From positions 1 through 18,760 of the forward strand of contig JAFYAB010000142.1 of NCBI GenBank assembly GCA_017540945.1: a stretch of 18,760 nucleotides of DNA, written 5' to 3'. The notes under the pieces were generated by a model. That model had not been told where the DNA came from, ran no database searches, and saw only the letters and a program-made list of their open reading frames with translations. Source of the stretch: Oscillospiraceae bacterium (GTDB lineage: Bacteria > Bacillota_A > Clostridia > Oscillospirales > Oscillospiraceae). The translations under genes were made by a program, and so were the position numbers. Below are positions 1-9,453 of the stretch, piece by piece. Positions within the stretch are counted from its first letter, which is position 1; each line of letters begins with the position of its first letter.

Positions 1-240
1 CCTACTACTACAAGGCTGTGCTGTGGGCCTATGAGAACGGCATCACCAAGGGCGTCAGCGATACCGAGTTCGGCAGAAAGAAGTCCGTGTCCCGCAGAGA
101 CATGATGGTGTTCCTGTACACGCAGCAGGGCAAGCCCACCTTCACGCTGTCTGAGAGCCCCTACACCGATGTGACCGATCCGAAGGCCTACTACTACAAG
201 GCTGTGCTGTGGGCCTACGAGAAGGGCATCGACAAGGGCG
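1..240 (+). repeat. Direct repeat within SLH coding sequence
   Basis: Bases 1-54 recur at 187-240 with four mismatches, a period of 186 bases that matches one SLH unit (62 codons). Both copies encode YYYKAVLWAYE followed by a glycine-rich turn. Confidence 0.85.
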
Positions 241-335
241 CCGACGGTATGTTCAACGGCAAGTCCGACTGCCTGCGCGAGACGGTGGTCCTGTGGATGT
301 ACCGCACCCTGCAGGGCAAGGCGCTGGCTGAATAA
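1..335 (+). CDS. SLH-domain protein, C-terminal fragment
   Basis: The gene enters from the left edge (reading frame starts at base 3) and stops at TAA 333-335, leaving about 110 residues. Two S-layer-homology units are visible: the end of one (YYYKAVLWAYENGITKG onward) and a full one starting YTDVTDPKAYYYKAV and ending near LWMYRTLQGK. The DNA of the two units is nearly identical over 54 bases (1-54 and 187-240, four differences), pointing to recent unit duplication or gene conversion. SLH units normally bind pyruvylated secondary cell-wall polymer and anchor exported proteins to the Gram-positive wall. The functional N-terminal part lies outside the window, so the protein's job cannot be told. 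A terminator follows about 85 bases downstream. Confidence 0.9.
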   Translation, partial: YYYKAVLWAYENGITKGVSDTEFGRKKSVSRRDMMVFLYTQQGKPTFTLSESPYTDVTDPKAYYYKAVLWAYEKGIDKGADGMFNGKSDCLRETVVLWMYRTLQGKALAE

Positions 336-7255: not shown

Positions 7256-7269
7256 AAAAAAGAAGAAAA

Positions 7270-7310
7270 GTCGCCCCGGAGCGGTTCAACACGAACCGCT
7301 CCGGGGCGAC
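7270..7310. terminator. Strong terminator between convergent ricT and SLH gene
   Basis: A perfect 18-bp stem (GTCGCCCCGGAGCGGTTC and its complement) around the loop AACAC. On the minus strand it is followed by the T-rich run CTTTTCTTCTTTTTT, so it should terminate the SLH gene ending at 7397; on the plus strand the tail is only TGTCGTTTTG. Bases 7311-7396 show nothing else. Its stem core is shared with 421-444. Confidence 0.8.
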
Positions 7311-7396
7311 TGTCGTTTTGCTCAGCTTTCGGATTCCGGCAGGCAGTCGATGGCGTCCGCAGCCTCCGCGCGGACTTCCCGGCCGACGAGAAGGGA

Positions 7397-8065
7397 CTAT
7401 CCCGCTGCGGGTGCGGGGACAATCTGCCACGCCAGCACCATCAGCACCTGGGCGGCCTCGGCCCGGGTGGCGGTCTTTTTGGGCAGGCAGCGTCCGGCGG
7501 CGTCTCCGGCGAAGAAGCCCCGGTGGGCGCAGAAGACTACGGCGTCCCGGGCATAGGGGGAAACCTGTTCTATGTCGGAAAAGGCCCGCTCGATGACGTT
7601 GTCGTCCGTCACCAGCTCCGGCTTCACCGCCTGGGCGAAGCGCAGCAGCATCACGGCCATCTCCTGCCGGGAAATGGGGGCCTTAGGGTCAAAGCGCCCG
7701 TCCCCCCGTCCGGCGACGATGCCCTGGGACGCGGCCCAGGCCACGGGCTTGGCGTACCAGGCTGTCGCGGCAACGTCGGCAAAGTCGGCGGCGGGCGTCT
7801 CGGCGGGCAGCTCCGTCCAGAGCGCCGCCATTCGGTAGAGGGCGGTGACGAACATGGCCCGGGTCATGGACGCCTTGGGAGCAAAGCGTTGGCCGCCCAC
7901 CCCGTTCATGTAACCCATCTGGCTGACCCGGCAGACGGCGTCCGCGTACCAGGCGTCCTCCGGCACGTCGTCAAAGCCATAGGCCGCGAAGGCCCCGCTT
8001 ACCAGGCCCATGGTCAACAGCGCCGCCATCAGCAGCGCCCCAAGCTTCACAGAGATTTTTTTCAT
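7397..8065 (-). CDS. Small secreted protein of three SLH repeats
   Basis: 222 residues: a signal peptide at 1-28 (MKKISVKL start, hydrophobic core LGALLMAALLTMGLV, AFA-A cleavage region), then three SLH units at about 31-80 (FDDVPEDAWYADAV), 93-146 (DFADVAATAWYAKPV) and 161-215 (AFSDIEQVSPYARDAV). No other domain is present, so it may be a wall-binding module, a competitor for anchoring sites or a partner protein. The second unit has a typical GRFDPKAPISRQEMA ending; the third is more divergent. Start ATG 8065 follows AAGGAGG. It is divergent from the ECF sigma gene and has a matching promoter at 8128-8154, suggesting it is a target of that sigma factor (inference). A terminator lies at 7270-7310. 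Confidence 0.9.
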   Translation of the reverse strand: MKKISVKLGALLMAALLTMGLVSGAFAAYGFDDVPEDAWYADAVCRVSQMGYMNGVGGQRFAPKASMTRAMFVTALYRMAALWTELPAETPAADFADVAATAWYAKPVAWAASQGIVAGRGDGRFDPKAPISRQEMAVMLLRFAQAVKPELVTDDNVIERAFSDIEQVSPYARDAVVFCAHRGFFAGDAAGRCLPKKTATRAEAAQVLMVLAWQIVPAPAAG

Positions 8066-8127
8066 TGTTTTTTCCTCCTTGATTTTTTCGGAAGCACAGC
8101 GCAGCGCTGTTTGCTTTCTGCCTGTAT

Positions 8128-8154
8128 AACGAGACAGGGATGAAAAAGGTCACA
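8128..8154 (-). promoter_or_regulatory. Putative ECF-sigma promoter of SLH gene
   Basis: On the minus strand TGTGACC (8154-8148), exactly 16 bases, then CGTT followed by ATAC (8131-8124). The same -35, spacing and CGTT occur on the plus strand at 8186-8212. The predicted transcript start is about 55-60 bases before the ATG. Confidence 0.65.
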
Positions 8155-8196
8155 GGGAGCGGAAAAAATTTATTTTTCTCATACCTGTGACCTTTT
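8144..8196. repeat. 13-bp inverted repeat between SLH and sigma genes
   Basis: AAAAGGTCACAGG (8144-8156) is perfectly inverted as CCTGTGACCTTTT (8184-8196) around a 27-base AT-rich centre. The arms carry the two predicted divergent -35 elements. Confidence 0.85.
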
Positions 8197-8212
8197 GTCC
8201 TGCTGGATCGTT
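8186..8212 (+). promoter_or_regulatory. Putative autoregulated promoter of ECF sigma operon
   Basis: TGTGACC (8186-8192), exactly 16 bases, then CGTT (8209-8212) followed by GTATAAAT. An AAC/GAC-type -35 plus CGT-type -10 is the usual ECF pattern. It lies about 85 bases before the chosen sigma start. Confidence 0.65.
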
Positions 8213-8297
8213 GTATAAATAATCAAGCTTGAAAACGGAAACGCGAACCGTTATAATCAAGGGGCGATTTATCGGACGAGCGAGGAGATACAGACCC

Positions 8298-8780
8298 ATG
8301 GAATTGGAATTTGAACAGCTGGTGCGGGAGCTGAGCCCGTCCCTGTTTCGGCTGGCTGTGAGCTACACCGGCATCCGGGAGGACGCGGAGGACGCGGTGC
8401 AGGAGGCCTTTCTGAAATACCTCCGCGGCGGCAGGCGCTTCGACAGCCCGGAGGAGGCCCGGCGCTATCTCATGACCGCCGTGGCCAACCAGTGCAGGGA
8501 CCTGCTGAAAAGCGCCGCCCGTCGGCGGAACCGGGCCCTGGAGGAGGCGGAGCGCTTCGCCGCCCCGGCGGAGGACCCGGACACCCGGCTGGAGGTGCAG
8601 CGGGCCCTGCAGGCCCTGGACCCCAAATACCGGGGTGTGGTGTATCTCTTCTATTATGAGGACTACCCCGTAAAGCGCATTGCCCAATGTCTGGGGCTGA
8701 CCCAGACCACCGTCCGCACCCGGCTGGACCGGGCCAGAAAACAGCTGAAGCAATTGTTGGGAGGGGAAGACTGTGGCTGA
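8298..8780 (+). CDS. ECF-type RNA polymerase sigma factor (sigma-70 family)
   Basis: 160 residues, normal ECF length. Region 2 spans about 5-75, with YTGIREDAEDAVQEAFLKYL (23-42) and the region 2.4-like YLMTAVANQCRDLL. Region 4 spans about 100-155: LDPKYRGVVYLFYYEDYPVKRIA followed by the helix-turn-helix LGLTQTTVRTRLDRARKQLK. There is no region 3, as expected. ATG 8298 is preceded by GAGGAG; an in-frame TTG at 8229 would leave almost no 5' leader after the predicted promoter and adds a stretch unlike the family. It overlaps the downstream membrane gene by eight bases, the typical sigma/anti-sigma layout. The predicted promoter matches that of the divergent SLH gene. Confidence 0.93.
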   Translation: MELEFEQLVRELSPSLFRLAVSYTGIREDAEDAVQEAFLKYLRGGRRFDSPEEARRYLMTAVANQCRDLLKSAARRRNRALEEAERFAAPAEDPDTRLEVQRALQALDPKYRGVVYLFYYEDYPVKRIAQCLGLTQTTVRTRLDRARKQLKQLLGGEDCG

Positions 8781-9453
8781 CGAAAAGCAAAAGATCAAGG
8801 GATATTTCGACGGCGTGCAGCCCTCGGAGGACTTCACCCGGCGGCTTTTGGAGCTGGAGCAGAGGGAGCGGCCCCCGGAAGCGGCTCCCCGGCCCATCCC
8901 CCTCCGGCGGCGCTGGGCCCCAGCGGCCATTGCCGCCGTGATGGTGCTGGTGAGCCTGGCGGGGCTGCGGCTGCTGGAGCAAAGTCGGCCCGAGCCCCTG
9001 CCCACCGGGACGGAGCGCGCCGCCTCCGATACGGTCACGGAGACAGCAGGCACGAAGCCCGTGGAAGGGATCACGGATTCCACCATGCCGGGCACAGACC
9101 CGCTTCCCCCGGTCACGGAGCCCATCCCGCCGGTCACGGAGCCCATCCCGCCGTTCACGGAGCCGCCCGTCCCCGGCACGCCGGATGGCGAATACGTCAA
9201 CGGCGATCGTCTGGGCTGGGACTACGCCCTGCAGCGGCAGGAGGGCCGGGTCCTGCTCCGGGTCACCGACCGGGCCAGCGGCGAAGGCTGCAGCCTGGAC
9301 ATCACCGACCAATGGAAAGAGGAGGGCTTCTATGAGGGCCGCGCCGCCTTCTTCGGCCTGGAGCGGGACTACCGCGTCTTCCTCCCGGAGGGCCCTCAGG
9401 AAGAGGGCTGTATGCTGCTGGTCACAATATCAGAAAACGATACCTTGCCCTGA
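8773..9453 (+). CDS. One-TM putative anti-sigma factor with extracytoplasmic domain
   Basis: 226 residues starting at GTG 8773 inside the end of the sigma gene, after GGGAGGGGAAGA. The N-terminal ~48 residues are cytoplasmic and charged (YFDGVQPSEDFTRRLLELEQ), the position where anti-sigma factors hold their sigma. One membrane segment lies at about 49-68, after the positive stop RRR. A Ser/Thr/Pro linker follows, with two exact 21-base DNA repeats encoding PVTEPIP (110-136). A beta-rich outer domain of about 90 residues (139-226) carries Cys173 and Cys213, which could pair. No zinc-anti-sigma HxxxCxxC motif is visible. I do not recognise the outer domain; the role is inferred from layout. 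The stop codon lies inside a terminator hairpin. Confidence 0.75.
   Translation: MADEKQKIKGYFDGVQPSEDFTRRLLELEQRERPPEAAPRPIPLRRRWAPAAIAAVMVLVSLAGLRLLEQSRPEPLPTGTERAASDTVTETAGTKPVEGITDSTMPGTDPLPPVTEPIPPVTEPIPPFTEPPVPGTPDGEYVNGDRLGWDYALQRQEGRVLLRVTDRASGEGCSLDITDQWKEEGFYEGRAAFFGLERDYRVFLPEGPQEEGCMLLVTISENDTLP
9109..9163 (+). repeat. Tandem 21-base repeat in anti-sigma linker
   Basis: Two exact copies (9109-9129 and 9130-9150) and a partial third (from 9151) encode the Pro/Thr-rich linker PVTEPIP. Copy number is a likely site of length variation between strains (inference). Confidence 0.8.

Follow-up and report, generated by a model that had tools for sequence, protein, structure and literature searches.

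Pairs in which an autoregulated ECF sigma factor is partnered with a membrane anti-sigma factor are the subject of a review (PMC8103513), and several described systems lie close to this arrangement. In the SigV/RsiV lysozyme response (PMC4183432, PMC5014341), the cited portions of the two papers describe an ECF sigma factor that is held by a membrane anti-sigma factor, which in turn receives a surface protein. The cited part of a study of cellulosomal clostridia describes SigI–RsgI as autoregulated, with an anti-sigma factor that combines a transmembrane domain with an extracellular module, and a figure legend of the same study includes SLH among the modules shown (PMC6056542). In Bifidobacterium breve, a serpin is protease-induced through a two-component system that adjoins the serpin gene, according to the cited part of PMC8012564.

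The stretch of DNA analyzed here, 18,760 nucleotides from an Oscillospiraceae bacterium (contig JAFYAB010000142.1; hereafter the window), carries an ECF sigma gene, an overlapping gene for a membrane protein, and a divergent SLH gene. We consider it likely, with a probability of roughly 0.8, that these genes constitute a dedicated ECF sigma/membrane anti-sigma module serving to produce one or a few surface proteins of the SLH type, a reading drawn from sequence comparison. As in the pairs of PMC8103513, the sigma factor comprises sigma2 and sigma4 only, the putative anti-sigma gene lies downstream, the –10 element is of the CGT type, and positive autoregulation is predicted; unlike the pairs in the cited part of that review, the putative anti-sigma factor matched no Pfam anti-sigma family, and the predicted output is SLH proteins, with SLH-serpins in some relatives. 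Predicted autoregulation and a putative anti-sigma protein with a transmembrane domain and an extracellular module are also shared with SigI–RsgI, although SigI, in the cited part of PMC6056542, is without the usual sigma4 and has promoters with an A-tract, whereas here the sigma factor is a full ECF factor and a T-tract follows the –35 element. A T-tract in ECF promoters of Bacillus subtilis is cited in that same part (Gaballa 2018). The likeness to SigV/RsiV lies in an ECF sigma factor presumably held by a membrane anti-sigma factor; the differences are that the sigma factor scores below the SigV model cut-off (79.1 bits against 190) and that an RsiV-type domain was matched in none of 10 anti-sigma homologues (Pfam, up to E 0.1). 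As in the cited part of PMC8012564, a signaling system can adjoin a serpin gene, with protease induction being the feature of B. breve; the system there is two-component rather than sigma/anti-sigma, and SLH anchoring does not figure in that part. The features of the locus are as follows.

7269–7311, minus strand: strong terminator-like hairpin 3' of the SLH gene, 20 pairs with a T-rich tail
7397–8065, minus strand: SLH gene, 222 amino acids, three SLH domains (PF00395, 3.2e-32, three stretches)
8125–8154, minus strand: ECF-type promoter of the SLH gene, TGTGACC at 8154–8148, N16, CGTT at 8131–8128, then ATA
8144–8156, minus strand: arm of a 13-bp inverted repeat containing the SLH –35 element, exact CCTGTGACCTTTT
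8184–8196, plus strand: arm of the 13-bp inverted repeat containing the sigma –35 element, exact CCTGTGACCTTTT
8186–8215, plus strand: ECF-type promoter of the sigma operon, TGTGACC at 8186–8192, N16, CGTT at 8209–8212, then GTA
8229–8257, plus strand: sigma-A-type promoter TTGAAA-N17-TATAAT 5' of the sigma gene, 11 of 12 consensus letters
8298–8780, plus strand: ECF sigma factor, 160 amino acids, ATG at 8298 (PF04542, PF08281, TIGR02937)
8773–9453, plus strand: anti-sigma-like membrane protein, GTG start, 8-nucleotide overlap with the sigma gene
9105–9164, plus strand: 2.9 tandem copies of a 21-bp repeat, within the P/T-rich stalk region of the anti-sigma-like gene

With PF04542 at residues 8–76, PF08281 at residues 98–150, and a short linker between them, the sigma factor has the domain content of an ECF (group IV sigma-70) factor. 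Recognition of its partner as a class I (ASD) anti-sigma factor is less direct. The anti-sigma-like protein matched the NCBIfam antisigma model weakly (9.3e-4, with 19.3 bits where the cut-off is 100), and no Pfam anti-sigma family was matched when 10 members were scanned up to E 0.1. Its predicted structure (mean pLDDT 65.6) begins with two short helices, followed by a membrane-length helix at residues 44–69, a disordered P/T-rich stalk at about 71–137, and a mostly confident beta domain at 141–218; the 51 homologues listed span 179 to 303 amino acids, some of them partial. From position and modeled topology, we infer that this second protein is the anti-sigma factor of the local sigma factor. 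The SLH protein has a signal-peptide-like start, as read by eye, and a Pfam scan recognized no domain besides SLH in it, a serpin domain being absent. The C-terminal end of a second SLH protein (PF00395) occupies window positions 18–335 on the plus strand, at the window edge.

The intergenic stretch between the SLH and sigma genes (8066–8297) holds TGTGACC-N16-CGTT exactly once per strand, as the preliminary description had reported, and the perfect 13-bp inverted repeat it had seen in the two –35 elements is likewise exact: 0.01 matches to CCTGTGACCTTTT are expected, and two copies arose in 0 of 200 shuffles. When up to two mismatches are allowed, the spaced pattern occurs four times in the window against 3.37 expected, which is chance level; weight therefore attaches only to the exact pair and to its conservation. 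In G001, a 98% relative, both ECF-type promoters are kept at the corresponding locus (L001), where the minus-strand copy reads TGTGACT, the 13-bp repeat is imperfect, and the box-to-box gap is 30 bases against 31 in the window. The ECF boxes alone are identical at 26 of 28 positions between window and L001 (p = 0.09 to 0.11 against the rest of the stretch); p = 0.017 (38 of 40 positions versus 155 of 192 elsewhere) is reached only with the 12 sigma-A hexamer positions counted. Since the ECF boxes by themselves are not significantly better kept than their surroundings, the strong evidence is the wider comparison below. The sigma-A hexamers are identical at 12 of 12 positions in L001, against 8 of 17 in the spacer between them, and TTGAAA-N17-TATAAT at 8229–8257 is a sigma-A-type promoter overlooked at first. 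The circuit described earlier as closed is therefore not fully so, because this promoter also precedes the sigma gene and is kept in L001; its self-regulatory part is supported by N16 sites in all 10 sigma upstream regions. A short palindrome, ACAGCGCAGCGCTGT, lies in the SLH leader at window positions 8096–8110; L001 keeps its stem and differs at the centre.

Genome comparisons were run on relatives, which are mostly metagenome assemblies. The search for sigma relatives covered 59 relatives (E ≤ 1e-20) together with 400 genomes taken from a larger family and 23 from a genus (both E ≤ 1e-36), in overlapping sets, and a scan of genome contigs kept the best 80 loci. Nine genomes encode a sigma factor 49–98% identical to that of the window, giving 10 loci with the window itself. 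The matches listed next, with identities of 45% or less, were taken to be paralogues; the top one is in G001, a genome that also has an orthologue. At all 10 loci the sigma gene is followed by a membrane-type protein gene, and a three-SLH gene adjoins the pair. It is the third gene of the operon in eight (G002, G007, G011, G021, G150, G296, G364, and G419) and divergent in two (the window and G001). By comparison, at none of nine paralogous ECF loci of G001, G002, and G007 is an SLH gene adjacent; at one locus an SLH match lies roughly 3.7 kb off, and two loci sit on contigs of only 4.5–5.5 kb. For the 78 more distant loci retained from the best 80 (L003–L080), an SLH match lay in the fetched region of two, L074 being one. 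The 10 of 10 should not by itself be read as a probability, given the common descent of the loci and the abundance of SLH genes in these genomes (in each of five, 74 to at least 150 domain matches); the SLH genes of the loci, moreover, are not clearly one orthologous family.

Some individual loci merit mention in their own right. At L074 (3–1385 and 1501–2024), a 35%-identical ECF gene is preceded by an SLH frame in the same orientation, and TGTGACC-N16-CGTT occurs exactly in its upstream region; the same exact site lies upstream of the sigma gene of L014, whose fetched stretch contains no SLH match. The operon SLH gene of G011 (L139, 5141–6611) spans two overlapping reading frames, reflecting either a broken gene or an assembly fault. 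The wall-polymer pyruvyl transferase family PF04230 is present in seven of the nine relatives, whose assemblies may be incomplete; it was not found in the possibly incomplete assemblies of G021 or of the closest relative, G001, despite their numerous SLH domains.

Upstream of the sigma gene, a –35 box separated by 16 bases from CGT is present at all 10 loci. The –35 element reads TGTGACC in the window and G001, TGTGACA in G007, TGTCACA in G002, TGCGATA in G021 and G011, TGCAACA in G296, G364, and G419, and TACAACA in G150. It has AAC, the –35 type of autoregulated ECF promoters, at four loci, GAC or CAC at four, and GAT at two (G011 and G021), with a T-tract after it; the –10 element is CGTT throughout, except for CGTA in G021. 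With a profile built without the locus's own lineage, a spacer of 16 scored highest in nine of the 10 upstream regions; in G021 it ranked second (10.4 against 10.6 at a spacer of 22). The eight operon-type loci each have one site scoring at least 15 in the fetched stretch around the sigma gene, and an inverted partner is absent.

SLH promoters outside the operon repeat the –35 element of their own genome's sigma promoter: TGTGACC in the window, TGCAACATTT in G296 and G364, and TGCGATATTT in G011. Searching G296 for TGCAACATTTC-N12-CGTTATA at up to two mismatches returned three matches: one is the sigma promoter, one belongs to an unlinked SLH gene, and one lies ahead of a membrane protein. The same type of pattern returned two in G364, at the sigma promoter and at the orthologue of that SLH gene, likewise unlinked; two in G419, at the sigma promoter and at the site corresponding to the membrane-protein match; and none in G150; reversed-pattern controls gave no match in these four genomes. 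Between G364 and G296, the boxes before the unlinked SLH gene are kept, and the spacer and the upstream neighbor differ. In G011, TGCGATATTT-N13-CGTTTT at up to two mismatches occurs in exactly two places, both exact (two for the control): one is the sigma promoter, and the other belongs to an SLH gene located on a different contig. That pattern was built from the letters common to both sites after the second, a serpin site, had been seen, so finding both was certain and the result is the absence of a third place. Together with the linkage at 10 of 10 loci, these lineage-matched promoters in G011, G296, and G364 support the proposed tie between the sigma factor and an SLH gene.

Who reads these promoters is a separate matter. 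Similar TGNNA(C/T)–T-tract–N16–CGT sites lie upstream of paralogous ECF loci, among them an exact TGTGACCTTTT ahead of an ECF gene of 37% identity in G003 and TGTTACCTTTT before another ECF gene in G001. Because such sites precede many paralogous ECF genes, the pattern marks an ECF promoter family in which only the –35 variant is more specific; since the variant itself is present before paralogues, another sigma factor could read these sites. A paralogous ECF factor, its gene having the same promoter architecture, might thus be the main reader, with the local sigma factor a follower rather than a driver. We regard this as improbable, given that the –35 variant of the SLH promoter follows that of its own lineage's sigma promoter. 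The putative –35 recognition helix (alignment A2) also points away from it, reading VRTRL at the four TGT loci and VRSRL at the six TGC/TAC loci, although that split may be one change on the tree. We infer that the local sigma factor reads both promoters of the window.

The divergent arrangement has a plausible history. In the sigma tree, G002 and G007 join the window and G001 in one group (97/96), and a single operon-to-divergent change explains the tree. The SLH promoter and leader of the window match the operon promoter of G007 at 37 of 50 positions, whereas the sigma promoter of the window itself reaches 26 of 50; for the leader part of this match, 13 of 20, 18 of 20000 shuffles did as well. 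The two promoters of L001 make up a 35-nucleotide inverted repeat that is 80% complementary, and their spacers agree at 11 of 16 positions (reached by 22 of 20000 shuffles), against 8 of 16 in the window (2929 of 20000). On the strength of the likeness to the sister-lineage operon promoter and of the inverted repeat in L001, the arrangement probably arose through an inverted promoter duplication in which the SLH gene kept the older copy.

New here is that the unlinked targets and several operon SLH proteins are SLH-serpins. The serpin domain PF00079 occurs in the unlinked SLH targets of G011, G296, and G364 and in the operon SLH proteins of G007, G021, and G150, with E-values of 4.5e-61 (G011), 1.3e-66 (G296), 2.3e-65 (G007), 6.9e-67 (G021), and 2e-171 over two stretches (G150) in a Pfam scan, and of 1.9e-67 (G364) in a genome search. 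No second domain was recognized in the operon SLH proteins of G002, G296, and G364. Two of the SLH-anchored serpin genes are located as follows.

L198, 3687–5420, minus strand: SLH-anchored serpin with an ECF-type promoter upstream
L218, 246–1976, plus strand: SLH-anchored serpin with an ECF-type promoter upstream

The nine genomes contain 18 distinct serpin frames, seven with SLH domains and 11 without. Six of the seven SLH-serpins either lie in the sigma operon (three) or have a promoter scoring 24.5 to 26.3 (three); the exception is an SLH gene of G419, which matches serpin in part and lacks the promoter (score 5.1). No such promoter was found at the 11 serpins without SLH, with scores of at most 13.1 near the frame start and no site of 15 or more on either strand of the fetched locus. 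The difference (6/7 versus 0/11) gives a Fisher p of 0.0004 with related genes treated as independent, an assumption that fails for G296 and G364. The scan was centered on the start of the open frame, whose start codon is unproven, and two loci offered only 162 and 229 bases upstream. The sites of G296 and G364 were found by pattern before the serpin had been recognized, and that of G011 in the serpin scan itself; the profile was built without the SLH-serpin sites of all three. At E ≤ 1e-60, a database search listed 58 homologues, and both Pfam domains are present in 53. Inhibitory serpins carry an alanine-rich motif in the hinge of the reactive loop, and one pattern for it is present in 39 of the 58 listed homologues.

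From these sequence relationships, the same switch appears to control wall-anchored, putative protease inhibitors in some relatives. The window's SLH protein lacks a serpin domain, and all four serpins of its closest relative, G001, are without SLH and without the promoter, so a serpin output is not claimed for the window's species. In the literature searched, with limited terms and over titles and the beginnings of abstracts, we recognized no description of an ECF-controlled SLH-serpin. For the window's SLH protein, the wall or S-layer stress response proposed in the preliminary description is, like protease defense, at most a conjecture. Serpin is the sole second domain identified in the relatives' SLH proteins, and in the window's protein none was recognized.

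Given how widespread SLH domains are here, the resemblance of the two promoters to an inverted duplication, and ECF boxes that by themselves are not significantly better kept than the rest between window and L001, the linkage could be a chance neighborhood in SLH-rich genomes, with the SLH promoter copy an idle by-product of duplication. This is very unlikely in view of the linkage at every orthologous locus, the lineage-matched promoters on unlinked SLH genes in G011, G296, and G364, and the uneven distribution of the promoter among serpins, with the reservation on independence given above. That the inverted repeat serves as the operator of a dimeric regulator, or as a cruciform element, with the CGTT elements incidental, would suit its exactness over 13 bp and the folding of its single-stranded DNA at –17.5 kcal/mol (z = –6.6), and is equally far-fetched, as the L001 repeat is imperfect with its centre gap shifted by one base while each –35/–10 pair keeps N16, and the eight operon-type loci have their single site without an inverted partner.

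A dedicated sigma/anti-sigma switch would operate as follows. The sigma factor would read TGTGACC-TTTT-N12-CGTTRTA promoters, one copy driving the sigma and anti-sigma genes and the inverted second copy driving the divergent SLH gene, with basal sigma factor supplied from the separate sigma-A-type promoter. The anti-sigma factor, exposing its P/T-rich stalk and beta domain outside the cell, would hold the sigma factor until a surface signal removes the anti-sigma factor; the freed sigma factor would then feed back positively and raise production of the SLH protein, making a self-amplifying switch with a small surface-protein regulon. In relatives, this output would be encoded third in the operon, and in the window's lineage divergently behind the duplicated promoter.

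Serpin being the only second domain identified in the relatives' SLH proteins points to proteases. Proteolysis is our preferred guess for the inducing signal, on the grounds that the recurrent identifiable target is a predicted protease inhibitor and that the B. breve serpin is reportedly protease-induced. More speculatively, a host or rival protease might cut the exposed stalk or beta domain of the anti-sigma factor and free the sigma factor, whereupon the wall would be covered with SLH-anchored serpins (in the window's lineage, an SLH-only protein) that neutralize or shield against that protease; we hold this scenario as possible but rather doubtful. If true, such a protease-sensing ECF system would parallel, with a sigma factor, the protease-induced serpin system of bifidobacteria. 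For an apparently unstudied group of ECF factors from gut and rumen clostridia, the analysis provides a candidate promoter together with a small candidate regulon and a role that can be tested, and the data suggest that wall-anchored serpins may be an inducible surface defense under sigma-factor control in some species. Three lineages in which the –35 variant of the target is that of the self-promoter also offer natural data on ECF promoter specificity.

The motif had been put forward as a means of finding the rest of the regulon, for which it proved of limited use: lineage-specific patterns scanned over the nine relatives and G003 yielded few further targets. In G001, TGTSACMTTT-N13-CGTTATA at up to two mismatches found both intergenic promoters and added only a paralogous ECF gene promoter and one coding-frame site (control none). 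The exact TGTGACY-N16-CGT has three further places there, two in coding frames and one intergenic (control two); the intergenic site, on G001:C116 before a 372-amino-acid frame, has neither the T-tract nor CGTT. A broad regulon was rejected. The sites beyond sigma promoters and SLH genes fall before ECF paralogues (G001:C55, G002:C1, G002:C202, and G003:C54), within coding frames (G001:C8, C96, and C121; G002:C95 and C115; G021:C14), or at other positions. For one pattern in G003, one of the eight matches was examined. Other sites lie on G002:C3, before a lipoprotein-like gene near an ECF paralogue, and on G002:C9, G003:C61, and G003:C74. The TGCGATATTT-N13-CGTTTT pattern left the sigma promoter of G021 unmatched and gave three matches elsewhere in that genome, one being the coding-frame site on C14. 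The other two are at L243 and L244 of G021, where TGCGATATTT-N13-CGTAAT stands upstream of two genes, which we take to be YidC-like and GyrB-like, as real targets or by chance. The membrane-protein site shared by G296 and G419 (L187 and L188) reads TGCAACAATTC-N12-CGTTATT.
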